Shown one piece after another: positions 48,590 through 61,057 of a stretch of 64,000 bases of DNA (position 1 is its first letter; every line of letters begins with the position of its first letter). A model generated the notes under the pieces. It did no database searches, had not been told where the DNA came from, and worked only from the letters and a program-made list of their open reading frames with translations. This DNA comes from Eubacterium ventriosum (GTDB lineage Bacteria; Bacillota; Clostridia; Lachnospirales; Lachnospiraceae). The translations under genes and the position numbers were made by a program. The stretch lies in the NCBI RefSeq assembly GCF_025150745.1, contig NZ_CP102282.1:434001-498000 (forward strand). The letters run 5' to 3'.

Positions 48590-50398
48590 ATGAACTTAAA
48601 AAATCAGTCAAACGCTTCTTTTTTCTTAAAGAAAAAGTATTTAAGATACACAGTTGCTCTTTTAACACTTACCTGTATTCTTTTATTTTCCTATTATTTA
48701 AAAAATAATAATTATTCTAATTTAGATCAAAAACACTCTGGCAACGCTAACAATGATTTTCAAACCTATGCCCAAAATCTTTTTGATGAACAACTTCTTT
48801 CTGATTCGTTAAGTATGCATTTTTATATAAAAACGCCGGATAAAAACATTCGGAATTCTCCTGTTACCTTAGGGGACTTTTCTTATGATTCCATGGTAAA
48901 AAGCCAGCAATACTACATTAATCAAATTAACCTCTTAAAGGATTTTAACTATAAAAAACTGTCCCAAAAAGAACAGCTTACCTATGATGTTTTATTGGAT
49001 TATTTTAGGAATCAACTTGATTACGGAGATCTTTGCCTTTGCAATCCGGTTCTAAGTCCCACCACAGGCATTCAGGCACAGCTTCCAATTCTCTTTGCCG
49101 AGTACACCTTTGCTGACAAAAAAGATATTGATAATTATCTTACTCTTGTCTCACAAATAAATGATTTTTTTAACCAAATATGTGAATTTCAAATATTAAA
49201 AGCAAAGAACAACAGCTTTTTAGGTTCTGAAACCTGTAATCTTGTTATTAAACAATGTACTTCATTTCTAGCAGAAAACAAACCTAAGGACAATCTTTTC
49301 CATACTTCATTTGTCAGCAAAATTTCAAAATGTAAATTTCTTTCCGACAGTGAAAAAAATAATTATATAAATAAAAATTTAGACCTGATTAATTCAAGTG
49401 TTTTTCCGGGATATAACAAAATTATATCCTCTCTTAAAGACTTGCAGAAAAGTGGTTATTGCAAAAATAACAAGGGCATCTGTCATTTAAAAAACGGCAA
49501 AAGCTATTATGAATTTCTTGTAAAAAATTATACCGGAAGTAGCAAATCTGTTCTTGAATTAAAATCAGATATTCAGTCACGGTTAATGAAGGATATGCGA
49601 ACTATGTATTCCATACTTACCGTTAATCCTGAACTTGAAAATATGTTTTACAGCGAAGAACATAATTCCAAAAGTCCCCAAGCTATTTTAAAAGAACTTA
49701 ATTCCAAATACACTGATGATTTTCCTAATATTGGAAACATTAATTACACTGTTAAATACGTAGACGAAAATCTTCAGGATTATTTAAGCCCTGCTTTTTT
49801 TCTGACTCCTGCAATTGATGATACAAACAATAATGTTATTTATATTAATGAAAGTGATGCTTTCAGCAAACAGGATATTTACACCACCCTTGCCCATGAG
49901 GGGATTCCGGGACATATGTACCAATCGGCTTTTTTTCTCCAAACCAATCCCCTTCCCGTCAGACACATTTTAAGCTATGGTGGTTATACGGAAGGTTGGG
50001 CTACGTATGTTGAATTTCTGTCCTATTCCTACGAATATTCCGACCAAAGACTGGCCAAAGCCCTAAGTTGTAGTGCCTCCTATTCCCTGGCACTTTACTC
50101 TCTTTGCGATATTGGCATTAATTATGAAGGCTGGTCTTTTAAGGAAACAAAAGATTTTTTGAAAAATTATAATATTACCGGAGATGATATTTGCAAAAAT
50201 ATTTATCAGACTGTAATCAATGAACCTGCAAACTATTTGCAATATTACGTAGGCTACCTTGAAATAACAGCGTTAAAAGAAAAAGTTCAAAAACAACTTG
50301 GAACTGACTTTAATTTAAAAGATTTTCATAAAAGTTTTCTAACAATCGGACCTGCAGACTTTAAAACCGTTGAAAAATGGATATACACCTTTTACTGA
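48590..50398 (+). CDS. DUF885 family zinc metallopeptidase-like protein, membrane-anchored
   Basis: The 602-residue product has an N-terminal signal anchor (about 20-40: YTVALLTLTCILLFSYYL), a long helical domain, and the metal motif LAHEGIPGHMYQ (about 437-448) with a distal Glu in GGYTEGWATYVE. This is the HExxPGH signature of DUF885 proteins, which are related in fold to M3/M32 peptidases. It is probably an extracellular peptidase. It is monocistronic on the plus strand. The ribosome binding site is weak, so the start is only probable. Confidence 0.83.
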   Translation: MNLKNQSNASFFLKKKYLRYTVALLTLTCILLFSYYLKNNNYSNLDQKHSGNANNDFQTYAQNLFDEQLLSDSLSMHFYIKTPDKNIRNSPVTLGDFSYDSMVKSQQYYINQINLLKDFNYKKLSQKEQLTYDVLLDYFRNQLDYGDLCLCNPVLSPTTGIQAQLPILFAEYTFADKKDIDNYLTLVSQINDFFNQICEFQILKAKNNSFLGSETCNLVIKQCTSFLAENKPKDNLFHTSFVSKISKCKFLSDSEKNNYINKNLDLINSSVFPGYNKIISSLKDLQKSGYCKNNKGICHLKNGKSYYEFLVKNYTGSSKSVLELKSDIQSRLMKDMRTMYSILTVNPELENMFYSEEHNSKSPQAILKELNSKYTDDFPNIGNINYTVKYVDENLQDYLSPAFFLTPAIDDTNNNVIYINESDAFSKQDIYTTLAHEGIPGHMYQSAFFLQTNPLPVRHILSYGGYTEGWATYVEFLSYSYEYSDQRLAKALSCSASYSLALYSLCDIGINYEGWSFKETKDFLKNYNITGDDICKNIYQTVINEPANYLQYYVGYLEITALKEKVQKQLGTDFNLKDFHKSFLTIGPADFKTVEKWIYTFY

Positions 50399-50489
50399 TA
50401 AGGATAACATTGTAAGAGTTGGAAACAGTTCACAATCCGCGTAATCCATTTTTTAATAATGTTTAATAAATTTTTTATTTTACAAAAAT

Positions 50490-50519
50490 CCCGAAATCAA
50501 AGTTATGTCTGATTTCGGG
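50490..50519. terminator. Bidirectional terminator between DUF885 gene and spmB
   Basis: CCCGAAATCA pairs perfectly with TGATTTCGGG around 10 bases, with an A-run before and GTTTTC after. Confidence 0.83.
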
Positions 50520-50530
50520 GTTTTCTTTTA

Positions 50531-51055
50531 CTACAACAATCCTGCTAATATTACACTTGCAACTGTACCTGTTAACGTTGAAATTAATGCTCCTGATAAA
50601 GTCCATCTTGTTTTCGTCACTTTTGCCGCCATAAAATATACTGACATAGTATAAAATACAGTTTCAGTACTACTCATCATTAAAGATACTACGTTTCCTA
50701 TGTACGAATCAGGTCCATACTCCTTAAATATATCAAGAACCATTCCGGTTGCCGCTGAGGATGAGAATATTTTTACTATGGTTACCGGCATTAACTGCCC
50801 CGGAAATCCTATGGGATCAGTAAACTTTCCAAGCACATTGCCTAAATCCGTCATAAAACCTGATTCTCTCAAAACTCCCACTGCCACCATAAGTCCTATT
50901 AGCGTTGGCATAACTTTTATTACCGTTGTAAAACCGTCCTTTGCACCATTTACGAAATCATCATAAACATTTTTCTTTTTTATCATGCCATAACCCACAA
51001 TAAACAGCATTATTGCAGGAATAATCATTGAAGATACTGTTACTATTATCGACAT
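50531..51055 (-). CDS. spmB: Spore maturation protein B
   Basis: The 174-residue membrane protein carries a nucleoside-recognition (Gate) domain: FVNGAKDGFTTVIKVMPTLIGLMVAVGVLRESG, then SSSAATGMVLDIFKEYGPDSYIGN and MSSTETVFYT. SpmA and SpmB help dehydrate the spore core. spmA normally lies directly upstream, but here it is 6.9 kb away at 57919. It is preceded by a terminator at 51130-51160, so it should have its own promoter. Confidence 0.93.
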   Translation of the reverse strand: MSIIVTVSSMIIPAIMLFIVGYGMIKKKNVYDDFVNGAKDGFTTVIKVMPTLIGLMVAVGVLRESGFMTDLGNVLGKFTDPIGFPGQLMPVTIVKIFSSSAATGMVLDIFKEYGPDSYIGNVVSLMMSSTETVFYTMSVYFMAAKVTKTRWTLSGALISTLTGTVASVILAGLL

Positions 51056-51125
51056 AGCAACCTCTTTAATATTTATTACTCTATTTTATGATATAAAAAA
51101 GATACCTATTACTTATCCTAAACCA

Positions 51126-51160
51126 AAAAGAATCCCCACATCATTTCGACATGGAGATTC
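51126..51160 (-). terminator. Terminator after the antiporter gene
   Basis: GAATCTCCA (51152-51160) pairs with TGGGGATTC (51130-51138, one G-U) and TTTTTGG follows on the minus strand. Confidence 0.75.
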
Positions 51161-51177
51161 CTATTATCTCATATTAA

Positions 51178-52518
51178 TTATCTATTTGTTTTTCCGATTT
51201 TTTCTCTCTGCTCGTAATTTTCTACTAACTTACTTGTTGTAGGAACATCAGATGCTGTCTTATTTCCACTCATAAATACAGGTTTCAATACGATAGGCGT
51301 TACAATTGTTGTAACAATAACAACAATAATAACCGGTGCAACAACTGCTGAACTCATAAGTCCGGCTTCAATACCCTTGTTTGCAACGATTAAGGCAACT
51401 TCACCTCTTGAAATCATACCTACACCAATTCTTATACATTGATAATTCTTATAACCACAAACCTTTGCACCAAGTCCACAACCGATAATCTTTGTTACAA
51501 CAGCAATAACAGTTAACAATACTGCAAATACTGCAACTGTCCATCCCATAGACATAACTGCATCACCGTCCACCTTAAGACCAATGCTTGCAAAGAAAAT
51601 AGGGCTTAAGAACATATAACCAATTACATCAAACTTAGATGCAATAAATTGGTCTTCCTGTGTCATTGAAATAATTACACCTGCGAAGAATGCACCTGTA
51701 ATATCTGCTACACCAAAGAAATACTCTGCTGCAAATGACATTAATAAACAAATAACAAATGCCATAATTGCGTGTCTGTGCATTCCTTTTCCGTCTCTCT
51801 GTCTCCACCATTTGAAGAACTTATAAACAATATATCCAAAAATAGCAACAAATACAAAGAACAATGCTATCTTTAATAATACTAACCATAATGGTGCTGA
51901 ATCACCTGCTGTAGCCTTTCCACCACCAAGACTTGTTACAATTGTAAGAACGATAATACCTAAAATATCATCAATAATGGCTGCTCCAAGAATGGCATTT
52001 CCTGATGCTGTTTTCAGTTTTCCCATTTCCTGCAATGTCTCAACTGTGATACTAACTGATGTTGCAGTTAAAACTACACCTACAAACACTGCCTGAATAA
52101 ATAATGAACTATCAGGGCTTGCCTCAATCCAACCTTCTTCTAAGAACCAATATGTAAATGCTCCACCACCTATAAGTGGTGCAATAACACCTAACACTGC
52201 AATAATAAATGATGCTTTTCCACATTTTTTAAGTTCGTTAATGTCTGTTTCAAGACCGGCACAAAACATAAGAACGATAACACCAATTTCAGACAAATGT
52301 TCAATAAAATCTGTCTGGTGTAAAGCCAAATTTTCTAAATGATGTCCTCCAATAACTACACCTGATAACAAATTTCCTAATACTGCAGGTCCAAGTAAAA
52401 GTCCTGCAAGTAAGGCACCTACTACCTGTGGCATTTTGTATCTTTTAGTAAGTAAGCCTAGAAATTTAGTACTCATTAGAATAAGTGCTAATTGCCACAA
52501 ATATCCGTACTCTTCCAT
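51178..52518 (-). CDS. Cation/proton antiporter, CPA2 family
   Basis: The 446-residue product has about twelve membrane helices. GALLAGLLLGPAVLG near the N-terminus, LGAAIIDDILGIIVL with the paired Asp ion site, and DITGAFFAGVIIS are typical of KefB/NapA-like CPA2 exchangers. No TrkA-N domain is attached. It exchanges Na+ or K+ for protons. AAGGAGGAAAAAAC precedes the ATG. The leader carries two hairpins at 52540-52585. Confidence 0.92.
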   Translation of the reverse strand: MEEYGYLWQLALILMSTKFLGLLTKRYKMPQVVGALLAGLLLGPAVLGNLLSGVVIGGHHLENLALHQTDFIEHLSEIGVIVLMFCAGLETDINELKKCGKASFIIAVLGVIAPLIGGGAFTYWFLEEGWIEASPDSSLFIQAVFVGVVLTATSVSITVETLQEMGKLKTASGNAILGAAIIDDILGIIVLTIVTSLGGGKATAGDSAPLWLVLLKIALFFVFVAIFGYIVYKFFKWWRQRDGKGMHRHAIMAFVICLLMSFAAEYFFGVADITGAFFAGVIISMTQEDQFIASKFDVIGYMFLSPIFFASIGLKVDGDAVMSMGWTVAVFAVLLTVIAVVTKIIGCGLGAKVCGYKNYQCIRIGVGMISRGEVALIVANKGIEAGLMSSAVVAPVIIVVIVTTIVTPIVLKPVFMSGNKTASDVPTTSKLVENYEQREKIGKTNR

Positions 52519-52539
52519 TGTTTTTTCCTCCTTAAACTA

Positions 52540-52585
52540 TGTCGGTACAACACACACCGACAGTCTGACTTTTAACTGTCAGACT
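52540..52585 (-). promoter_or_regulatory. Tandem leader hairpins upstream of the antiporter
   Basis: AGTCTGAC/GTCAGACT (52562-52569 with 52578-52585) and TGTCGGT/ACCGACA (52540-52546 with 52556-52562) are adjacent on the transcript strand, sharing one base. No U-run follows the second. This could be a terminator-like separator or a regulatory leader. Confidence 0.45.
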
Positions 52586-52688
52586 CTTTCTTTTATTATA
52601 AAAATATTTTTTCAAACCTGATTCATAATAGCACCATACCCGACCAAATTCAACTTATTTTTTTATTTTTAACACTTATTTAACTTTA

Positions 52689-53333
52689 CTAATTTAAGTT
52701 GTCTTTTTTATTATACATACCATATTTCTCTTTCATTCTGCTAAGCTTATTAAAGAGTGGTTTTGCAAGAAGCAGAAGAAAAACAACTGTTGCAATTCCA
52801 TGTACTATATTAAAAGGTATTCCCATGGCATAGGTTGACATAAAACTGCTAATTTTAGGCCTATCCGTGTACATAAAAACTGTTGCCGTATCAAGTATTA
52901 GCCCATACACAACAAAAGTCATTATAAATCCATATACGCAAAGTACCACTTTGTTGTAGGCTAAGTACTTTCTTTTTTGAAAAACTATTGCAGAAATGAA
53001 TCCGATAATTCCGAAGGCGAACATTTGCCATGGCGTCCATGGTCCCTGACCGAAGAAAAAATCTGACACAAAAGCCGTTAAAGCACCACATAAAAAACCT
53101 GCTTGTTTTCCCAACATAATTCCCGTAATAATTATTATTGCCACGCATGGTTTAAACTGAGGCAACATAAAAAATATTACTCTGCCCAATGTTGCAATAC
53201 TAGTCATTACCGCCAACACAACAACTTCTCTTGTTTTAGGTTTTCTTTTCTCAAAAGACCACATAAAAAGAAATATGGAAATTACAATAATAAGAATTGC
53301 CGCTAAATAATATTCTCTGCCTTTAAAAAGCAT
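52689..53333 (-). CDS. ECF transporter S component (putative corrinoid-specific)
   Basis: The 214-residue product has about six membrane helices; an N-terminal helix and basic stretch (FEKRKPKTREVVVLAVMTSIATLGRV) is followed by GIMLGKQAGFLCGALTAFVSDFFFGQGPWTPWQM, the pattern of ECF substrate-binding subunits. It overlaps the EcfA gene by 31 bases, with AAGGAGG in the coding end of that gene. Specificity is not readable directly; the adjoining transcobalamin-like genes suggest a cobalamin-type substrate. Confidence 0.85.
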   Translation of the reverse strand: MLFKGREYYLAAILIIVISIFLFMWSFEKRKPKTREVVVLAVMTSIATLGRVIFFMLPQFKPCVAIIIITGIMLGKQAGFLCGALTAFVSDFFFGQGPWTPWQMFAFGIIGFISAIVFQKRKYLAYNKVVLCVYGFIMTFVVYGLILDTATVFMYTDRPKISSFMSTYAMGIPFNIVHGIATVVFLLLLAKPLFNKLSRMKEKYGMYNKKDNLN

Positions 53334-54955
53334 ACTACATCCTCCTTGTTGACTGCATTTTCTATACTTCTTCCTGCCATTTTATTAACCGATGTGGTAT
53401 AAAATTTGTTTTTTGTAAAAAATTTTCTAACGTTATTAACACCAATAAGGTTTCCCTGGGCAAACAATCCACATCTGTCAGCATATTGTCCACAAAAATC
53501 CAAATCATGACTTACCATAACAATTGTCTTGCCCCGATTTTTCAAATCCATCATTAACCTGCCAAGGCTTTCCTTATATATTCCGTCAATTGCCTTTGTA
53601 GGCTCATCCAGTAACAGAATATCAGGATTTTTTGCCAAAACCTTTGCCAAAGCAACTTTCTGCTGTTGCCCTCCACTTATATCATATGGATGCTGTTTAA
53701 GCACATTGATTAATTCCATTTTTTCGATTAAGTTGCTGCTAACCCCAATTAGTTCATCTTCCACAGTTTCTTCTTTAAACAAAGTCTGCACATTCTGTGG
53801 CAAAGCTGACACTGTTCCGTTAATTTTAATCTTTCCTCTATAAGCTTTTCTAATTCCGCTTATTATGCCCATAGTTGTAGTTTTTCCTGTTCCATTTCCG
53901 CCAAGAATAGCAAAAATTTCACCTTTTTTTATTTCAAAATTTAATCCCTTTATAATATCAGGACTGGCTTTTTCATATCTGAACCAAACATTTTTGCACT
54001 TAATTGCATAATCATTTTTAACTATTACTTTCTTATTTATATCTTCACTTATATTTCTTTTGATATTTTCATTTATTTCTTTATCTAAACCTTTTTCTAT
54101 ATCTTCAACATTTTTGCTTCCGTTTTTAACCAATCTTTCAAGCCATCTTCTTCCGTCTGAAATGGATATTGGCGTCTTTTCATCTGCTCCTTCCATTCCT
54201 GACTCATAATAAATTCTTGTTGCCATAGGCATAAGCTTTAGCACATCTTCATCTATATTATGTTCCAATATTCTATATGGCTCTCCGCAATATTGTATCT
54301 TTCCACTATCCATTACAATAACTTTATTTCCGTAAGCCAAAACATTGTCAAGCCTGTGTTCTGACAAAATTACAGTTATTCCAAGTTCATCATTTATCTT
54401 TTTTAATGTTCCTAAAAAGTTCTCTGCTGCAATAGGATCAAGCTGTGCCGTAGGTTCGTCCAAAATCAATATTTCCGGTCCCATTACCATAGTTGCTGCC
54501 AGATTAAGTAACTGTTTCTGACCTCCTGAAAGCTGATTTACCGAATTATAATACAAATCCGTTATTCCAAAATATTCAGCCATTTCCGTTACTCTTAACT
54601 GTATTTCGTCTGTGGAATACCCAAGGCTCTCCAAACCAAAAGCCAATTCATGCCAAACTTTGTCCGTTACTATCTGATGTTCGGGATTTTGCATAACGAA
54701 GCCTATTTTCTCAGCCTGTTGTCTTTCACTTAATTTTTCCAATTTCTCATTTTCAAAAATAATGTCACCTAAAGTTTTCCCATAAGGCTTAATTATAGGT
54801 TTTAAACATCTTAAAAGAGTACTTTTTCCGCAGCCTGATTTTCCGCACAGCACAACAAAATCTCCCTTTTCTATATTAAAAGAGAGATTTTCTATTGCCG
54901 GTTTTTCCTGCTTATTATAAAAAAAAGTTAAATCTTTGATTTTAATCTGTTCCAT
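53303..54955 (-). CDS. ECF transporter ATPase, fused EcfA-EcfA'
   Basis: The start at 54955 (MEQIKIKDLTFFYN) has GGGAG 8 bases upstream. The product has 550 residues with two ABC domains. The first has Walker A CGKSGCGKST, signature LSGGQKQ and LILDEPTAQLD; the second has GGNGTGKTT, ISGGQQQK and LLLDEPTKAID. It energises the S component with EcfT. It overlaps ecfT by 28 bases and the S-component gene by 31. Fusion of both ATPases with a dedicated EcfT and S gene indicates a group I type transporter. Confidence 0.93.
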   Translation of the reverse strand: MEQIKIKDLTFFYNKQEKPAIENLSFNIEKGDFVVLCGKSGCGKSTLLRCLKPIIKPYGKTLGDIIFENEKLEKLSERQQAEKIGFVMQNPEHQIVTDKVWHELAFGLESLGYSTDEIQLRVTEMAEYFGITDLYYNSVNQLSGGQKQLLNLAATMVMGPEILILDEPTAQLDPIAAENFLGTLKKINDELGITVILSEHRLDNVLAYGNKVIVMDSGKIQYCGEPYRILEHNIDEDVLKLMPMATRIYYESGMEGADEKTPISISDGRRWLERLVKNGSKNVEDIEKGLDKEINENIKRNISEDINKKVIVKNDYAIKCKNVWFRYEKASPDIIKGLNFEIKKGEIFAILGGNGTGKTTTMGIISGIRKAYRGKIKINGTVSALPQNVQTLFKEETVEDELIGVSSNLIEKMELINVLKQHPYDISGGQQQKVALAKVLAKNPDILLLDEPTKAIDGIYKESLGRLMMDLKNRGKTIVMVSHDLDFCGQYADRCGLFAQGNLIGVNNVRKFFTKNKFYTTSVNKMAGRSIENAVNKEDVVCFLKAENII

Positions 54956-55833
54956 CTTAATGTCTCCCAAATATTTATCAAAACAGGTGTTAAACATAAT
55001 AGTCCAAAAATTACATATGCCATTACATCATTCTTAATCCTTATTGTCGGATAATAATAAGTTATTATTATTTCATTATGCAATGCCACAATTGTTGCTA
55101 TCGTCAGCACTATGCTCCACAATAAAATAATTCCATCTCTTACCGTAAACCTATAATTGTTGTAGCTTGTCCTTTTTCCTGTTCCGTATCCTCTTGCCCT
55201 CATTGAATCTGCCGTATCCACTGAGTTTTCCAAAGACCATGTTGTTATAATTGAAAAAATCTTTGCTTCTTCCTTAAACTTGTCTTTAAGATTTTTTATT
55301 TTTGCTTTTATTGTTTTGCCTTTATCCTGCCTTTTAACTCCATTTAATGCCTGATTGGCTTCCAAAGTATCTTTTCCATGCTCTGTCATCTTAGGAATAA
55401 ACCTTAAAATCATAGTCAACAAAGTTGCTATTACAGGCATTGTCTTCCCAAGAACTGCCAATATTTTATCTGTTGTTATGATTATGTTAAAGCTCCCAAA
55501 CCACATAATCATTGCACATATTATTCCTGCTGTTGCAAACCCATATACTATTGACTCTAATGTAACCGGATTTCCCGTAAATAAATAGAACAAAAGAGTG
55601 CTTCCTCTATGAGAAAATAGAGGGTTTATAACTGCAGAAGTCAAAAATACCACCATTACCCCACAAAAAAATTTTAGATTCCATTCTTTTTTTAAAAAAA
55701 TGTAGTATATCAACGCTACAATAAAGGAAATAATTATTAATCCAATCTGCATTTGAAACATTGTTATACCCAGTACACAAATATAAAATACTATATTGAC
55801 TAAAGGATGAAATCTTGAAAATTCATCATTCAC
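54928..55833 (-). CDS. ECF transporter transmembrane component EcfT
   Basis: The 301-residue product starts MNDEFSRFHPLVNIVFYICVLG and has membrane helices at the N-terminal half, a long cytoplasmic coupling region with ADSMRARGYGTGKRT (the EcfT Ala-Arg-Gly motif contacting the ATPases) and two C-terminal helices. It overlaps the DUF4430 gene by 8 bases and shares its ribosome binding site region (GGAAGGTGA). Confidence 0.92.
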   Translation of the reverse strand: MNDEFSRFHPLVNIVFYICVLGITMFQMQIGLIIISFIVALIYYIFLKKEWNLKFFCGVMVVFLTSAVINPLFSHRGSTLLFYLFTGNPVTLESIVYGFATAGIICAMIMWFGSFNIIITTDKILAVLGKTMPVIATLLTMILRFIPKMTEHGKDTLEANQALNGVKRQDKGKTIKAKIKNLKDKFKEEAKIFSIITTWSLENSVDTADSMRARGYGTGKRTSYNNYRFTVRDGIILLWSIVLTIATIVALHNEIIITYYYPTIRIKNDVMAYVIFGLLCLTPVLINIWETLRWNRLKSKI

Positions 55834-56323
55834 CTTCCAAATCCTTTCCTAATTTGCATGTATAATTCCACTTAATTATATCGCCATCTTCAACATCATA
55901 CTTGCTACAGCTTTTTCCCGGATAAACTCCGTTTACCTCATACATCCATCCTGACTGCTCACCACATGAAAATTCATAAATATTATTTATGCCTTCTACA
56001 TACACGCTATCGCCCGCAAATGATGCCTCCATTAAAATATTGTCTTTTTTTAATTCTCTCTTTAAAACATCATAAACTGTTTCTCCGTCATAATAGGACA
56101 CAGTTCTCTCTTTTAAAATTACACCATCCTTTGGCACATAATCCTTTATGGACTTATCAAGCATATCCTCATTGTCCCATATAGTCGAACAATCTACAGA
56201 TATGGTACACTTTCCCGCACTTTTTTTGCCTGTTGTATCATCCTTACTGTTTCCACAACCACATAGCAAAATACATATGCTTATAATTAAAACTAATAAT
56301 TTTCCGGTAATTTTATTTTTCAT
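55826..56323 (-). CDS. DUF4430 lipoprotein (transcobalamin C-terminal-like)
   Basis: The 165-residue product is a lipoprotein: MKNKITGKLLVLIISICILLCGCGNS, with the lipid Cys in LCGC. The DUF4430 domain (about 35-160) shows YDGETVYDVLKREL, then YEFSCGEQSGWMYEVNGVYP and YDVEDGDIIKWNYT. DUF4430 is the C-terminal beta domain of human transcobalamin and intrinsic factor. Its ATG overlaps the barrel-protein gene by 11 bases, and EcfT follows by overlap, so all belong to one operon. The inferred role is capture of a corrinoid at the outer membrane face. Confidence 0.88.
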   Translation of the reverse strand: MKNKITGKLLVLIISICILLCGCGNSKDDTTGKKSAGKCTISVDCSTIWDNEDMLDKSIKDYVPKDGVILKERTVSYYDGETVYDVLKRELKKDNILMEASFAGDSVYVEGINNIYEFSCGEQSGWMYEVNGVYPGKSCSKYDVEDGDIIKWNYTCKLGKDLEGE

Positions 56324-57836
56324 TTTCTGCTTTCCTTTTTCCTATTATATAAACAATAATTGCAATAACCATAACAACTGCTGCAATAACGCCTATTACT
56401 ATCTTGGTTCTGTTAGATTGATTCTTCTTTCCATTTATATCATTAATCTTAGCTTCTTTTTCTCCGACTTTTGCATCATCACTTGTATTATTTTTTGAAT
56501 TTTTAACTGTTGTTTCTGATTCTTCTTTTTTATTTGATTTTTTTACTTTTTTATTTGATTTTTTTACTTTTTTGTTTGTTTTTGATTTACTGTTTTTTGT
56601 TGATTTAGTTTTTGTGTTCTTGTTAGACTTTTTATTTGAACTGCTGCTTTTTTTATTATTTTTTACTGAAGTAGTTTCTTCTTTATCCTTATCACTTACA
56701 GTGCTTTTTGAGGTATTTTTTTTGGTACTCTTTTTTGTTGTTTTCTTTACGGTTTTAATTGTTTTAGTTTTGGAAGCGGCAGTCTTCTTTTTTTCAAGAA
56801 CTTTTTTGGATACTTTTTGATATGAAATTCCGTCTGCCATATCATAAAATCCATTCATTATAGTCAAACTTCTATAATATGCTGTCAAAGCACAAAAACC
56901 CTGTTCAGTTGCCATATGATTGTAACCACCGTTTTTAGTATGTGAAAACTTTCCATTACTATAATAATCTAAAAGCCCGTTAAGTACTGTATTTCCATTC
57001 TTTACAAAACGCGAATCTTCTATATTAATGTTAAGAGCTGATATTGCCATCAAAACCTGGGCTGTGCTTTCGCAGTTGCTAATGCCTTCTGCTGAATATC
57101 CTCCATCATTGTTTTGTTGCCTGCTTAAAAACTTTAATGCCTTATCAACTGATTTTTTTACACTTTTATCACTGCCTGTATAATAAAAAGACAACGCCTG
57201 CACTGCCATGGCTGTAATGTCGCACTCAGACTTGTCTGCCATGCTCCAACCACCGTCACTGTTTTGATTTTTAATGATATACTCTATTAATTTCTTTACT
57301 GTAGTAACTTCCCCTGTATAATTTTTGTCAGGCTTTGGAATTTTGTAATTACTGCTGTGAATGGCAATTAAAGCATATATTGAGCCGTTAATTCCCTGCT
57401 TGTTTACATTGTCAAACTCAGCCAATGGCTTTAACAAATTATACCCACCAAAATTTGTTGGATTTTCGTCTATTGAAGCCAACGCAATAACAACTCTTGA
57501 ATATTCCGTATATTTTCTTGTGGACAAAACACCATCTTTTGCCTTTACTTCTTTTAAAAGATTTTCTTTGTATTTAGAAATATAATCTTTTGTAACTGCT
57601 CCATATCTGGCAAGACCTATAATATTCCACTCTCCATCTATTGAGCCATATATCGGCTCCTTAACCTGTTCCTGCTGACTGTACGCAATTGTATACAGAT
57701 ATTCATCTATCTTAGCTTTGCTTATGCTTTCTCCTGCTGAAACATTTATGGTTATTACAATTGCCATTAACATTGCCAAAACCATACAAAGTACTTTTTC
57801 TGCCTTTTTAATTCCTACATTACTTTTTCCGTCCAT
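56313..57836 (-). CDS. Surface-anchored alpha6/alpha6-barrel protein (prenyltransferase-repeat, transcobalamin N-terminal-like)
   Basis: The start at 57836 (MDGKSNVG) has GGAG 6 bases upstream. The product has 507 residues. It has a signal peptide ending NVSAGES and a helical repeat domain (about 45-335) with the recurrent NSDGGWS, NNDGGYS and NGGYN motifs typical of squalene-cyclase/prenyltransferase barrels. A very Lys/Ser/Thr-rich linker (about 345-465) and a C-terminal membrane helix (about 473-495) ending GKRKAENEK follow. No DxDD cyclase motif or prenyltransferase zinc site is seen. It is the first gene of the ECF operon, with its own promoter. Confidence 0.85.
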   Translation of the reverse strand: MDGKSNVGIKKAEKVLCMVLAMLMAIVITINVSAGESISKAKIDEYLYTIAYSQQEQVKEPIYGSIDGEWNIIGLARYGAVTKDYISKYKENLLKEVKAKDGVLSTRKYTEYSRVVIALASIDENPTNFGGYNLLKPLAEFDNVNKQGINGSIYALIAIHSSNYKIPKPDKNYTGEVTTVKKLIEYIIKNQNSDGGWSMADKSECDITAMAVQALSFYYTGSDKSVKKSVDKALKFLSRQQNNDGGYSAEGISNCESTAQVLMAISALNINIEDSRFVKNGNTVLNGLLDYYSNGKFSHTKNGGYNHMATEQGFCALTAYYRSLTIMNGFYDMADGISYQKVSKKVLEKKKTAASKTKTIKTVKKTTKKSTKKNTSKSTVSDKDKEETTSVKNNKKSSSSNKKSNKNTKTKSTKNSKSKTNKKVKKSNKKVKKSNKKEESETTVKNSKNNTSDDAKVGEKEAKINDINGKKNQSNRTKIVIGVIAAVVMVIAIIVYIIGKRKAENEK

Positions 57837-57881
57837 TAATTTCTCCATATGTTCTATCAAAATTTATTCAACTTGATTTTT

Positions 57882-57910
57882 AGTATACCCTTTACATATG
57901 ATAATTTCAA
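57882..57910 (-). promoter_or_regulatory. Promoter of the barrel-DUF4430-ECF operon
   Basis: TTGAAA (57905-57910) and TATACT (57882-57887) are separated by 17 bases in the short gap after spmA. No cobalamin riboswitch fits in the roughly 40-base leader. Confidence 0.75.
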
Positions 57911-57918
57911 ATATTATA

Positions 57919-58527
57919 TTAATTATTCCTTATTCTTCCTTTACACTTAATCTTGCACCATATCACACCCACCAATGTGCTTATTGTTGTGGCAATAATT
58001 GCCGGTCCAACAATTGCTGCAGGATTGGCACTTCCATACTGGCTTCGATACGCAATAATATTAACCGGAATTAACTGTAGAGACGAAATATTTACAACCA
58101 AAAAAGTACACATTTCATCTGTTGCCACATAGGCCGGCAAATTACCACCCTTTTGTTCCACAGGCTTTGCTGACAATTCTTCCATTGCTTTCAAACCTGC
58201 CGGAGTTGCTGCCCAGCCCAGGCCTAATATATTTGCAATAATATTTGTTGTTATACTTGCCAGTGCGGGATGATTCTTTGGAATATTGGGAAAAAGCCAA
58301 CTTACAACCGGATCTAATCCCTTTTCCGCTTTTCTAATTAAGCCGGATGTTCTTGCAACTTCCATAAAGCCCATCCACATACTCATTATACCCACCATAG
58401 TAATACATAATTTTACAGCTTCCGTTGCAGATCCAATTGCCCCGCTTCCTACTTTTTCTATATTTCCAGTTATAAAACCATAAATTACACCTATGACAAT
58501 CATAAAAAACCATATATAATTTAACAT
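57919..58527 (-). CDS. spmA: Spore maturation protein A
   Basis: The 202-residue Gate-domain membrane protein has MLNYIWFFMIVIGVIYGFITGN, VKLCITMVGIMSMWMGFMEVARTSGL and NILGLGWAATPAGLKAMEEL, followed by ATDEMCTFLVVNISSLQLIP. It works with SpmB in spore core dehydration. It is separated from spmB by the ECF operon and antiporter. Confidence 0.93.
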   Translation of the reverse strand: MLNYIWFFMIVIGVIYGFITGNIEKVGSGAIGSATEAVKLCITMVGIMSMWMGFMEVARTSGLIRKAEKGLDPVVSWLFPNIPKNHPALASITTNIIANILGLGWAATPAGLKAMEELSAKPVEQKGGNLPAYVATDEMCTFLVVNISSLQLIPVNIIAYRSQYGSANPAAIVGPAIIATTISTLVGVIWCKIKCKGRIRNN

Positions 58528-58851
58528 TTTTCTACTCTTATTTATTATTTTTATATATTATTCTTTATTATTTTGTCCTATTACTTTTAGTCATTTTTAT
58601 ATGAAATATTTACAGTTTTGATATTTTTTATCAGTTATTTATAACGTTATTATTCATACATTTTAACTTTTTCGTCTATTATTCCCATATAATTAACTAG
58701 TTTTTTGTAAAAAAACCTCTTAAACTTTGTTAAATATTTAACGTATTTTTCTCTTGACTAATTTCCAAACAGGATATAATATGTAAGCCGAATGAAGGAT
58801 TAAACAAATCCCATTCAAGTAATCACATTTCTGTTTTAGGAGGTATTTATT
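58528..58851. other. Intergenic region upstream of spmA and the HPr-like gene
   Basis: The region is AT-rich and divergent. The plus-strand promoter and AGGAGG site of the HPr-like gene are clear. I see no gene, strong hairpin or clear promoter for spmA; sporulation sigma-factor sites could be present but I cannot assign them. Confidence 0.4.
58754..58780 (+). promoter_or_regulatory. Promoter of the HPr-like gene
   Basis: TTGACT (58754-58759) and TATAAT (58775-58780) are 15 bases apart; a shifted TAATAT two bases on gives 17. The start would lie about 65 bases before the ATG. Confidence 0.6.
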
Positions 58852-59082
58852 ATGAAAACAGTAACAGTTAACTTGAATTCAATTGAAAAAGTAAAGTCCT
58901 TCGTAAAGGATTTAAACAAGTTTGAGAATGATTTTGACTTAGTTTCAGGCCGTTTCGCTATTGATGCAAAATCAATAATGGGTATTTTTGCACTTGACCT
59001 TTCTAAGCCTTTACAGCTTAACATTCATTCACAGTACCAGGGAGATGCAATCGCTGCAGCTCTTAGCGACTACACTTGCTAA
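58852..59082 (+). CDS. HPr-like protein lacking the active-site histidine
   Basis: The 76-residue product has the HPr fold pattern (MKTVTVNLN, then FDLVSGRFAIDAKSIMGIFALDLSKPLQLNIHS). The GLHARPA loop is replaced by NSIEKVKSF, so no PEP-dependent phosphorylation is possible. The Ser of DAKSIMGI, equivalent to Ser46 of HPr, is kept. This resembles Crh of Bacillus in principle. The strong AGGAGG site, own promoter and own terminator suggest high, independent expression. A regulatory role with a CcpA-type protein is inferred. Confidence 0.85.
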   Translation: MKTVTVNLNSIEKVKSFVKDLNKFENDFDLVSGRFAIDAKSIMGIFALDLSKPLQLNIHSQYQGDAIAAALSDYTC

Positions 59083-59202
59083 AGAGCCTATAGGTTCAAC
59101 CTGTATTACAAAAGGACAGTTATTCAATAGAAAATTTATATAAATAATAAAAACTTAAACAATTGGATTCAGAGGCTTTTTTACAAAAGCCAATAATGAA
59201 GA

Positions 59203-59236
59203 AGGAAGCGCATCATCTGGTGTGCTTTCTTTTTTA
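59203..59236 (+). terminator. Terminator after the HPr-like gene
   Basis: AAGCGCATC (59206-59214) pairs with GGTGTGCTT (59219-59227, two G-U) and TCTTTTTT follows. Confidence 0.75.
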
Positions 59237-59247
59237 TATTGTATACT

Positions 59248-59413
59248 AGGAAATAGTGGGACTGAAAACAATAGGCAGATTTTTGAAATTTTGCGAGCAT
59301 AGTGTAAGCCAAAAATCAACTGTCTGAGCCGTAGGCGAGTTTTGATTTTTGGACTTACGATAAACGGCGGAGCAAAATAAGAAAATCAACGTGTTTTCAG
59401 ACCACTATTTCCT
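59248..59413 (+). repeat. Structured dispersed repeat, copy B
   Basis: The 166-base element is closed by AGGAAATAGTGG (59248-59259) and its perfect complement at 59402-59413. The inner stem is 59304-59319 with 59342-59358. The core matches copy A on the opposite strand, but the closing arms are of different sequence. Inverted, related terminators flank it on both sides. Confidence 0.8.
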
Positions 59414-59424
59414 GTTATACAACA

Positions 59425-59452
59425 AAGAAGCACATCAAGTGATGCGCTTCTT
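59425..59452 (-). terminator. Terminator after rsmI
   Basis: AAGAAGCGCATCA pairs with TGATGTGCTTCTT (one wobble) around 2 bases, with TTTGTTG following on the minus strand. Sequence is closely related to the terminator at 59203-59236 in inverted orientation. Confidence 0.75.
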
Positions 59453-59456
59453 ACTT

Positions 59457-60296
59457 CTACTTTATTAATTGGTTATATATGTCTCTTTTGGAAACTCCTC
59501 TGTCTTTTGCAACAAGTTTCATGGCTGACTTTTTGTCGTTCCCCTGACTTATATAGTATTCCATATGTTCTTCTATTGTCATTGATTCCCATTTTTGTTT
59601 GTTTTCTTCCTGTATTTCTTCCTGAGATTTTCCCTCTATCACAAGAACATACTCTCCTCTAGGTTCTTTTTCATTGTATTTCTCTATTGCCTGGTCTATT
59701 GTTGTTTTGTCAGCTTCCTCATATTTCTTGGTTAACTCTCTACATAATGTAAGTTGTCTGTTTCCAAGTGTTTCCCTTAATTCTTTTAAGGTTCTTGCCA
59801 GCCTGTGAGGTGCCTCATATATTATAATTGTTCTTGTTTCATTTTTTAATTCTTCAAGAACTGCTACTTTTTCTTTTTTATCTTTTGGTAAAAAAGCTTC
59901 AAAACAAAATCTTCTTGTTTTCTGACCTGACATTGTAAGCGCTGTAATACATGCCGCAGGGCCTGGCAATGATGTTACCTGTATGCCTGCTTCAAAGCAC
60001 TGTCTCACAACTTCTTCCCCCGGATCAGATATTCCCGGCGTTCCCGCATCAGTTATAATGGCAATGTTTTTGCCTTCCTTCATCATTTCTACCAACTGTT
60101 TTGCCTTATCATATTTGTTAAACTCATGATAGCTTGTCATTGGTGTTTTTATATCAAAATGATTAAGCAATTTTATGCTGTTTCTTGTATCTTCTGCCCC
60201 AATCAAATCTACTTCATTTAAAGTTCTTACAACTCTATATGTAATATCTTCAAGATTTCCTATTGGTGTGGCGCATAAATATAATTTTCCTGCCAT
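59457..60296 (-). CDS. rsmI: 16S rRNA (cytidine(1402)-2'-O)-methyltransferase
   Basis: The 279-residue tetrapyrrole-methylase-family enzyme modifies C1402 in the decoding centre. KLYLCATPIGNLEDITYRVVRTL, AEDTRNS, IITDAGTPGISDPG and LPGPAACITAL are the family motifs. It ends the conserved holB-ricT-trmN6-rsmI block, 23 bases after the methyltransferase gene. Confidence 0.96.
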   Translation of the reverse strand: MAGKLYLCATPIGNLEDITYRVVRTLNEVDLIGAEDTRNSIKLLNHFDIKTPMTSYHEFNKYDKAKQLVEMMKEGKNIAIITDAGTPGISDPGEEVVRQCFEAGIQVTSLPGPAACITALTMSGQKTRRFCFEAFLPKDKKEKVAVLEELKNETRTIIIYEAPHRLARTLKELRETLGNRQLTLCRELTKKYEEADKTTIDQAIEKYNEKEPRGEYVLVIEGKSQEEIQEENKQKWESMTIEEHMEYYISQGNDKKSAMKLVAKDRGVSKRDIYNQLIK

Positions 60297-60319
60297 TTCT
60301 ACCTCTATTCTGCAAAATG

Positions 60320-61057
60320 CTAAAATCCATATATTCTGTGTATTTCCTTAGTATAAACTCCCGGTTCATCGTACACAATAAGTGGCGGTTCCACTACCAT
60401 CATTGACTTTCCGCCTCTTACCCCTTCTATTAGAAGCATGTTTGCATCTCTGTCCGCAAAAGGATGTATCATTCTAAGTCTTTTAGGCTCAATTCTATAT
60501 TCCTTCATAAGACTAATAATTTCAGCCAACCTTCTAGGTCTGTGAACCATATAAAATCTTCCCTTAGGCTTTAGTAACTTAGCTGACTCTCTTATTACAT
60601 CTTCAAGATTGCATTTAATTTCATGCCTTGCAATTGCCTTAGGCTCATCGGGATTTTTTACACCATGATTTTCAGTCATATATGGTGGATTAGTTGTTAC
60701 AACATTAAAACTTGCTGCCCCAAAAATCTTAGAAGCTTCTTTTATATCTCCGTCAACTATTTTAATTCTGTCCTGAAGGTTGTTAAGCATAACGCTTCTT
60801 CTTGCCATTTCAGCACTTTCAGGCTGAATTTCCAATGCTTCAAAGTCCTGTCCTTCTGTTTTTGCTTCAAGTAATATTGGAATAATTCCAGTACCTGTTC
60901 CAAGATCTAAAGCTCTTTCACCTTTTCCTACCTTAGCAAAACCTGTTAACAGAACGGCATCCATTCCAAAACAGAATCTCTCTCTGTTCTGAATTATTTT
61001 ATATCCATTTCTCTCCAAATCTACAATTTGTTCACCTGATTGCAACTTTACTTCCAA
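60320..61057 (-). CDS. tRNA1(Val) (adenine(37)-N6)-methyltransferase-like, YabB/TrmN6 family
   Basis: The 245-residue SAM-dependent methyltransferase has ALDLGTGTGIIPILLEAK for SAM and the N6-adenine motif TTNPPYMTENHG. FCFGMDAVLL near the start is typical of the family. It lies between ricT and rsmI, as yabB does in Bacillus. The substrate is probably tRNA. Confidence 0.92.
   Translation of the reverse strand: MEVKLQSGEQIVDLERNGYKIIQNRERFCFGMDAVLLTGFAKVGKGERALDLGTGTGIIPILLEAKTEGQDFEALEIQPESAEMARRSVMLNNLQDRIKIVDGDIKEASKIFGAASFNVVTTNPPYMTENHGVKNPDEPKAIARHEIKCNLEDVIRESAKLLKPKGRFYMVHRPRRLAEIISLMKEYRIEPKRLRMIHPFADRDANMLLIEGVRGGKSMMVVEPPLIVYDEPGVYTKEIHRIYGF

Follow-up and report, generated by a model that had tools for sequence, protein, structure and literature searches.

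A five-gene operon in a 64,000-nucleotide (nt) stretch of the Eubacterium ventriosum genome (contig NZ_CP102282.1, positions 434,001 to 498,000; the window hereafter) probably encodes a vitamin B12 (corrinoid) capture-and-import system. The operon is a minus-strand cluster (52689-57860) of five open reading frames (ORFs) with overlapping ends, as an earlier first-pass annotation of this DNA had it, in the order of a secreted barrel protein (B), a DUF4430 lipoprotein (D), and the EcfT (T), fused EcfA-A' (A) and S components of an energy-coupling factor (ECF) importer; B and D would be two halves that sandwich a corrinoid, for delivery to a CbrT-like S. This interpretation is supported because S is related to CbrT, cobalamin riboswitches are found at orthologous operons, B and D are fused in some relatives, a natural barrel-DUF4430 tandem matches mammalian B12 carriers, the BtuF family is absent and a MetH-like protein is present. 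The data support the gene set, the homologies of its members, the link to corrinoids and the topology signals of the surface proteins, and with these the earlier suggestion of corrinoid uptake through transcobalamin-like capture proteins and an ECF importer of their own.

A conserved operon with a CbrT-related importer

The gene order B-D-T-A-S was kept in all 17 same-genus stretches spanning B to S, and of the 68 related loci in which T is present and preceded by 0.8 kb or more, 58 have D upstream of T-A-S, so the gene set is not a product of chance. The related loci (L065-L144) are the best 80 of 584 relatives, taken from named records, and our counts therefore describe close relatives; T was not found in eight of the 80, which were excluded from the 68 and from the 56 loci considered below, in which T is preceded by 3.5 kb or more.

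Pfam placed S amongst the ECF-type S components, with ECF-ribofla_trS (1.7e-14) as the best name, and found two ABC_tran stretches in A. T matched CbiQ at 0.002, below the cut-off of that family, and was also identified from its conserved place between D and A in the related loci. When a profile of S (alignment A1 of 16 sequences, the window and 15 others, though 30 loci were available) was compared with all PDB sequences, the best match was CbrT of Lactobacillus delbrueckii (6fnp, 4.4e-22), followed by 4hzu_S (named only as a predicted membrane protein; 0.0015), RibU (0.0028) and FolT (4.8), with CbrT ahead of RibU by 61 bits. The NCBIfam models for riboflavin and folate reached 34.4 of 99 and 30.5 of 60 bits, far below their cut-offs. 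As CbrT is an experimentally shown S component for B12 and cobinamide (PMC5997447), the relationship of S to CbrT, together with the cobalamin riboswitches at orthologous and related loci, ties the transporter to corrinoids. A corrinoid substrate is well supported by these sequence comparisons, and with T and the fused A encoded in the same operon this bears out the dedicated corrinoid importer of the first-pass annotation.

We note that the S match was in two halves in four related loci (L068:4564-5370, L083:4851-5807, L104:4950-5861 and L120:2251-3135). L083 and L104 have this split match in an additional S-like gene, upstream of D and besides the S behind A, which may serve a second substrate; L068 and L120 have no S other than the split one, which is located between D and T.

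B12 need and other import routes of the host

In the E. ventriosum genome, a single contig of 99.97% completeness, we found a MetH-like protein that combines homocysteine, pterin and B12 domains (TIGR02082 below its cut-off, 492 of 1011 bits), and no match to the BtuF family PF01497 or to CbiD. Across 23 genomes of the genus, S was present in 21 and B12-binding_2 also in 21, the latter mostly in ORFs of MetH size (the one in the E. ventriosum genome was examined), and PF01497 was present in one and in none of the 13 good-quality genomes. PF01497 also includes siderophore-binding proteins and its absence is for this reason a strict test. Since the BtuF family is absent from 22 of the 23 genomes while B12-binding_2 is present in 21, the operon would be the only B12 import route recognised here in the genus, and other kinds of corrinoid route are possible. 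The co-occurrence with ECF genes and the absence of BtuF that would be expected from the first-pass annotation are thus both seen. A BtuCDF-type importer was considered as a candidate and rejected on the absence of PF01497 from the E. ventriosum genome; the sole BtuF-family protein of the genus is G017:C16:27243-27992 (1.7e-35).

The proposed capture proteins

B is made up of a signal peptide, a ~300-residue barrel, a K/S/T-rich stalk of ~130 residues and a C-terminal hydrophobic anchor, in keeping with the secreted and membrane-anchored barrel protein described earlier. Its most likely start is the ATG at 57836, behind GGAG, rather than the listed TTG at 57860. D is a DUF4430 protein (PF14478, 2.7e-18) with a lipobox; this lipobox and the stalk and anchor of B were read directly off the sequence by the usual motifs.

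In our survey of B and D, which covered 19 of the 21 S-bearing genomes of the genus (G011 and G018 were left out), the two are separate in 15 of 19 operons (the window, 13 of 17 stretches and L166) and in one ORF in the other four (L039, L040, L041 and L043). At each of the four junctions the anchor of B is joined to the D lipobox through a short basic turn, and because of this both domains of the fused protein would end on the outer face. In other chains the barrel is followed by DUF4430, neighbouring domains being 9 to 247 residues apart; one of them is a secreted protein of at least 568 residues with a nine-residue gap and a riboswitch in its locus (L063). Amongst the 56 loci D was found upstream in 48, B in 42, both in 41 and a riboswitch in 34, and the one locus with B and without D upstream (L087) has its D gene behind S, as does L135. 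In eight loci from Paenibacillus and Lutispora (L080, L084, L090, L103, L121, L122, L142 and L144) giant proteins are encoded directly upstream of D-T-A-S, and these have one to three DUF4430 matches located between barrels.

Structure models and the mammalian carriers

The barrel of B was modelled with AlphaFold (predicted local distance difference test, pLDDT, 93.5; predicted template modelling score, pTM, 0.90), and our barrel alignment (A8) held 45 of 63 barrel rows plus the window. Foldseek on PDB placed terpene cyclases first (E 2e-5), with drimenyl diphosphate synthases in the top ranks, transcobalamin at rank 24 (E 5.8e-4, template modelling score, TM, 0.60) and intrinsic factor at rank 50 (TM 0.57), amongst the first 50 of 936 matches. 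Window B therefore has the alpha6/alpha6-type barrel of the transcobalamin family, which is not specific to it, and window D has the DUF4430 domain (PF14478), and the single chain of the family is represented in the window by two genes.

For the two domains together we modelled the natural barrel-DUF4430 tandem of L114 (alignment A10, 13 of the 17 tandem ORFs from L065-L144; pLDDT 80.2, pTM 0.66), a natural tandem being chosen since MAFFT aligned the L065 fusion and separate B and D rows across the wrong domains. PDB ranks 1-14 were taken by transcobalamin, intrinsic factor and haptocorrin (E 6e-12 to 4e-9) and ranks 15-16 by the isolated beta domain of human transcobalamin (5no0, 5np4). Sequence identity of the tandem to the carriers is 14-16%, and its sequence profile reaches intrinsic factor weakly (0.0039), behind cyclases.

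Cobalamin riboswitches at the operon and its relatives

The Rfam model RF00174 found 15 cobalamin riboswitches in 14 of the 23 genus genomes, and ten of these stand directly before the orthologous operon, in ten genomes; spmA was just upstream of the operon riboswitch in nine of the ten, G008 being without a spmA match. Nine genomes have riboswitches only at the operon, G014 has both placements, and four (E. ventriosum, G015, G017 and G022) have them only away from it. We also built a model of our own (R1) from 11 riboswitches, ten at such loci and one from elsewhere in the E. ventriosum genome, with only 14 base pairs; of its 11 rows only that of L041 is repeated letter for letter in L065-L144, in L065. 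On the 80 related loci R1 gave 47 matches (E up to 0.1), 46 on the operon strand, and a match upstream of S in 38 loci, in 33 of which the next recognised operon gene is at most 600 nt away. This count of 38 leaves out the opposite-strand match in L104 and matches behind S (L094 and L120, and second ones in L070, L087, L099 and L119). RF00174 itself matched in 38 of the 40 genomes searched, those of L065-L104, which represent 40 of the 80 loci.

In each of the other 18 same-genus operons (17 stretches and L166) B follows a DUF4430 gene of secreted or wall type, ahead of which the riboswitch stands in ten genomes. The window alone of the 19 is without this first DUF4430 gene; here spmA comes immediately before B, at 58 nt from the listed B start. 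We note that R1 matches of 43-55 bits are found ~55-110 nt before the first DUF4430 gene in four loci (L045:4604-4765, L046:4725-4907, L050:7796-7975 and L051:7808-7992). Rfam finds no cobalamin riboswitch in these four genomes, which are not amongst the ten, and the stretches are candidates for diverged or decaying cobalamin riboswitches.

Proposed mechanism and alternative explanations

We infer ligand binding, closure of the two halves and hand-over to S in the following way. D, as a lipoprotein on the outer face of the membrane, would be the counterpart of the small beta domain of transcobalamin, and B, with its barrel on a wall-spanning stalk with an anchor of its own, that of the large alpha domain. 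The corrinoid would most likely be taken first by D, and the stalked barrel of B would then close over the D-held corrinoid; fragments of intrinsic factor close in a similar two-step manner. D is put first because the isolated beta domain of transcobalamin can bind cyanocobalamin, going by the title of PDB 5np4. The corrinoid would then pass to S, which would topple in the membrane as in the toppling model of S components (described in PMC10368641), powered by the operon's own EcfT and fused EcfA pair. The more specific idea of a split transcobalamin, whose two independently membrane-tethered halves would meet around the corrinoid on the cell surface and dock with a CbrT-type S, is tentative and falls just short of what we would call probable.

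A number of results weigh against the capture-and-import interpretation. Sequence profiles of the barrel retrieve cyclases and not B12 carriers, and the profile of D retrieved no B12 carrier from the PDB sequences. The window barrel model appears to fit transcobalamin as well as it fits other toroids and singles out none of them. The L114 tandem is a paralogue and not an orthologue of the window pair, and the DUF4430 fold was checked on this paralogous domain rather than on window D. Over both domains the tandem differs from transcobalamin by a root-mean-square deviation of ~22 A at a pTM of 0.66, and because of this the model appears to match the carriers in domain identity and order and not in their closed arrangement; the likeness to transcobalamin proposed in the first-pass annotation thus extends to the ranking of this tandem, but not to its superposition nor specifically to the window barrel. 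Neither B nor D was found upstream in seven of the 56 loci (L105, L106, L108, L117, L124, L128 and L135), and in five loci (L106, L112, L128, L138 and L139) a riboswitch is directly upstream of T-A-S with no recognised D in the fetched stretch. No cobalamin riboswitch was found in the window by Rfam or R1, nor in 57300-60500 at a permissive threshold, and neither model found one at the operon in G009, G015, G017 or G022.

The first-pass annotation had seen no B12 riboswitch either and had suggested that regulation may differ; this stands for the window copy, but the system itself is often preceded by a riboswitch in relatives, and the missing riboswitch is a trait of the window copy and some relatives and not of the system. 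The five loci with a riboswitch and no D are also without a recognised B, and have the importer without the capture pair; as loci exist with the transporter and without B and D, the pair is not obligatory for transport.

It should be considered whether B and D form a single clamp at all, as the importer might take corrinoids that D alone binds, with B as a scaffold or independent binder. The domain arrangement of the tandem model, which differs from that of the carriers, would agree with this, as would the wider spread of D than B upstream of the transporter in the 56 loci and the human transcobalamin beta domain bound to cyanocobalamin in the title of 5np4. However, the fusions in four of the 19 same-genus operons, the barrel-DUF4430 order in other chains and the presence of an upstream D in 41 of the 42 loci that have an upstream B speak for a clamp, and we regard this alternative as unlikely. 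Cobalamin riboswitches respond to several cobamides, and the substrate could instead be a corrinoid precursor or analogue (cobinamide, cobyric acid or pseudo-B12), with the surface pair selecting among corrinoids. The absence of CbiD from our search of the genome is in agreement with this (salvage genes were outside the survey), as is the uptake of cobinamide by CbrT (PMC5997447). We consider a precursor or analogue somewhat unlikely to be the substrate, and such a substrate would refine the capture-and-import interpretation rather than exclude it.

Two further explanations are highly improbable. B could be a catalytic class II cyclase or prenyltransferase found fortuitously in the operon, as its matches in Pfam (squalene-hopene cyclase C, 4.6e-7; prenyltransferase toroid, 1.5e-6) and amongst PDB sequences are to such enzymes and drimenyl diphosphate synthases head its Foldseek results. 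The Pfam matches, however, span only ~80-105 residues of B, and DXDD, the acid motif of class II terpene cyclases, is not found at the matching place in the alignment, where window B has ECDITAM and the family DPDITAM; B is also secreted, anchored, and genetically coupled to D and the riboswitch. For the cyclase motif this agrees with the earlier statement that the barrel lacks cyclase or prenyltransferase active residues. Import of another vitamin, riboflavin or folate, would agree with the Pfam name of S, but not with the low scores of the NCBIfam riboflavin and folate models, nor with the lead of CbrT over RibU; at the orthologous loci, moreover, the riboswitches that Rfam recognised were all of the cobalamin class, and these show no sign of the different vitamin pathway by which the first-pass annotation could have been overturned.

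Relation to known systems

The general idea of bacterial transcobalamins is already published, as Burroughs et al. 2007 (PMC1796856) described bacterial secreted proteins with SLBB and alpha/alpha toroid domains in operons with CbiO-like ATPase and CbiQ-like genes, and suggested that they scavenge B12 and that the fused form was passed on to animals. Those proteins resemble the window in having DUF4430/SLBB and an alpha/alpha toroid in CbiO/CbiQ operons, often with a second SLBB protein. The toroid is fused to SLBB in them, whereas in the window the halves are separate and each is membrane-anchored, and the genus has both split and fused orthologues. Neither an S component nor a cobalamin riboswitch is named in the parts of that paper drawn on here, and both are linked to the proteins in our analysis. 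In mammalian transcobalamin, intrinsic factor and haptocorrin an alpha/alpha barrel is followed by a DUF4430-type beta domain, the same order as in the bacterial single chains; these carriers are one chain, in contrast to the two anchored polypeptides of the window, known here from genes and models.

Cbr transporters are reportedly defined by Rodionov et al. 2009. CbrUVT is a signature used in vitamin reconstructions (PMC6593275), to which window T-A-S may correspond, a comparison by name only. ECF-CbrT of L. delbrueckii (6fnp, PMC5997447) has in common with the window the S family, ATPases and a T component, and surface capture proteins are not mentioned in what we have drawn from that paper; its group II module serves CbrT along with other S components, whereas the window has fused ATPases, the module in the same operon and the capture pair in addition. 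The window proteins can also be compared with other surface proteins for B12. The BtuG and BtuH lipoproteins of Bacteroides have folds that differ from those of B and D. They likewise capture B12 at the surface ahead of an importer (PMC6143338, PMC8941943) but, unlike the window proteins, are part of the outer-membrane BtuB system.

Open-access titles and the openings of abstracts showed no experimental work on a bacterial protein of this kind, and we found no open-access paper linking ECF transporter, cobalamin riboswitch and transcobalamin (subscription papers and preprints were outside the scope of both searches). New here are the split, doubly anchored form, its occurrence beside fused orthologues within a single genus, the relation of S to CbrT, and the riboswitch link and its absence in the window copy. 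If the idea of a split transcobalamin is right, the split and fused forms in the genus show how the fused animal carrier could have arisen, and such bacteria, where they live in a gut, would rival the intrinsic factor of the host by means of a homologue of it. The operon is a compact system for testing the 2007 proposal and a bacterial origin of intrinsic factor and transcobalamin.

Genomic neighbourhood

The operon is flanked by genes that we presume to encode SpmA on one side and a cation antiporter and SpmB on the other (Table 1), with Pfam giving Gate for both the SpmA-like and SpmB-like proteins. Insertion of the operon between spmA and spmB in the E. ventriosum genome alone was ruled out, as relatives have the same neighbours. 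The only putative promoter is a consensus match in the short gap upstream of B, and the evidence for it is weak because the 49 promoter-like sites in 50300-59400 are close in number to those in shuffled sequences (40.6 +/- 6.2); the single promoter of the first-pass annotation thus has a matching site, but one of little weight.

Table 1. Positions of the operon genes and neighbouring features in the window.
Feature	Position	Strand	Basis
B, membrane-anchored secreted alpha/alpha-barrel protein	56313..57860	-	ORF list, Pfam, model, orthologues
Barrel domain of B, modelled stretch, 316 aa	56823..57770	-	structure model
D, DUF4430 lipoprotein (lipobox LCGC, SGWMYEVNG)	55826..56323	-	PF14478 2.7e-18; 30-row alignment
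EcfT, CbiQ-like, divergent	54928..55833	-	Pfam below cut-off; conserved place between D and A
EcfA-EcfA' fused ATPase pair, probable start near 54955	53303..54997	-	two ABC_tran stretches
S component, CbrT-related	52689..53333	-	Pfam; profile vs PDB, 6fnp CbrT E 4.4e-22
Short gap between SpmA-like gene and B, holding only a weak promoter-like match (57910-57882)	57861..57918	-	sequence scan
SpmA-like gene, conserved neighbour upstream of operon	57919..58527	-	Pfam Gate; present in relatives
Cation-antiporter-like gene, other flank of operon	51178-52518		presumed name
SpmB-like gene, other flank of operon	50531-51055		presumed name; Pfam Gate

Surface proteins behind distant riboswitches

The only RF00174 match in the E. 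ventriosum genome (C1:1539791-1539995) is ~210 nt before the gene of a 2169-residue surface protein (region C1:1539791-1546714; L036:5792-12715) with one barrel and several DUF4430 domains (three stretches by Pfam and four by profile), as well as weak FIVAR and fn3 matches below cut-off. This protein is a candidate for a second, giant B12 capture protein, and amongst the genomes looked at, such a barrel-DUF4430 carrier behind a distant riboswitch was found in E. ventriosum only; in G017 the contig ends at the distant riboswitch. In G014, G015 and G022 strong cobalamin riboswitches (111-120 bits; L160, L161 and L162, respectively) stand before genes of secreted GLUG-repeat proteins of 978-1016 residues, which have no DUF4430 match and no recognised B12-binding domain, and which could possibly be novel B12-related surface proteins.

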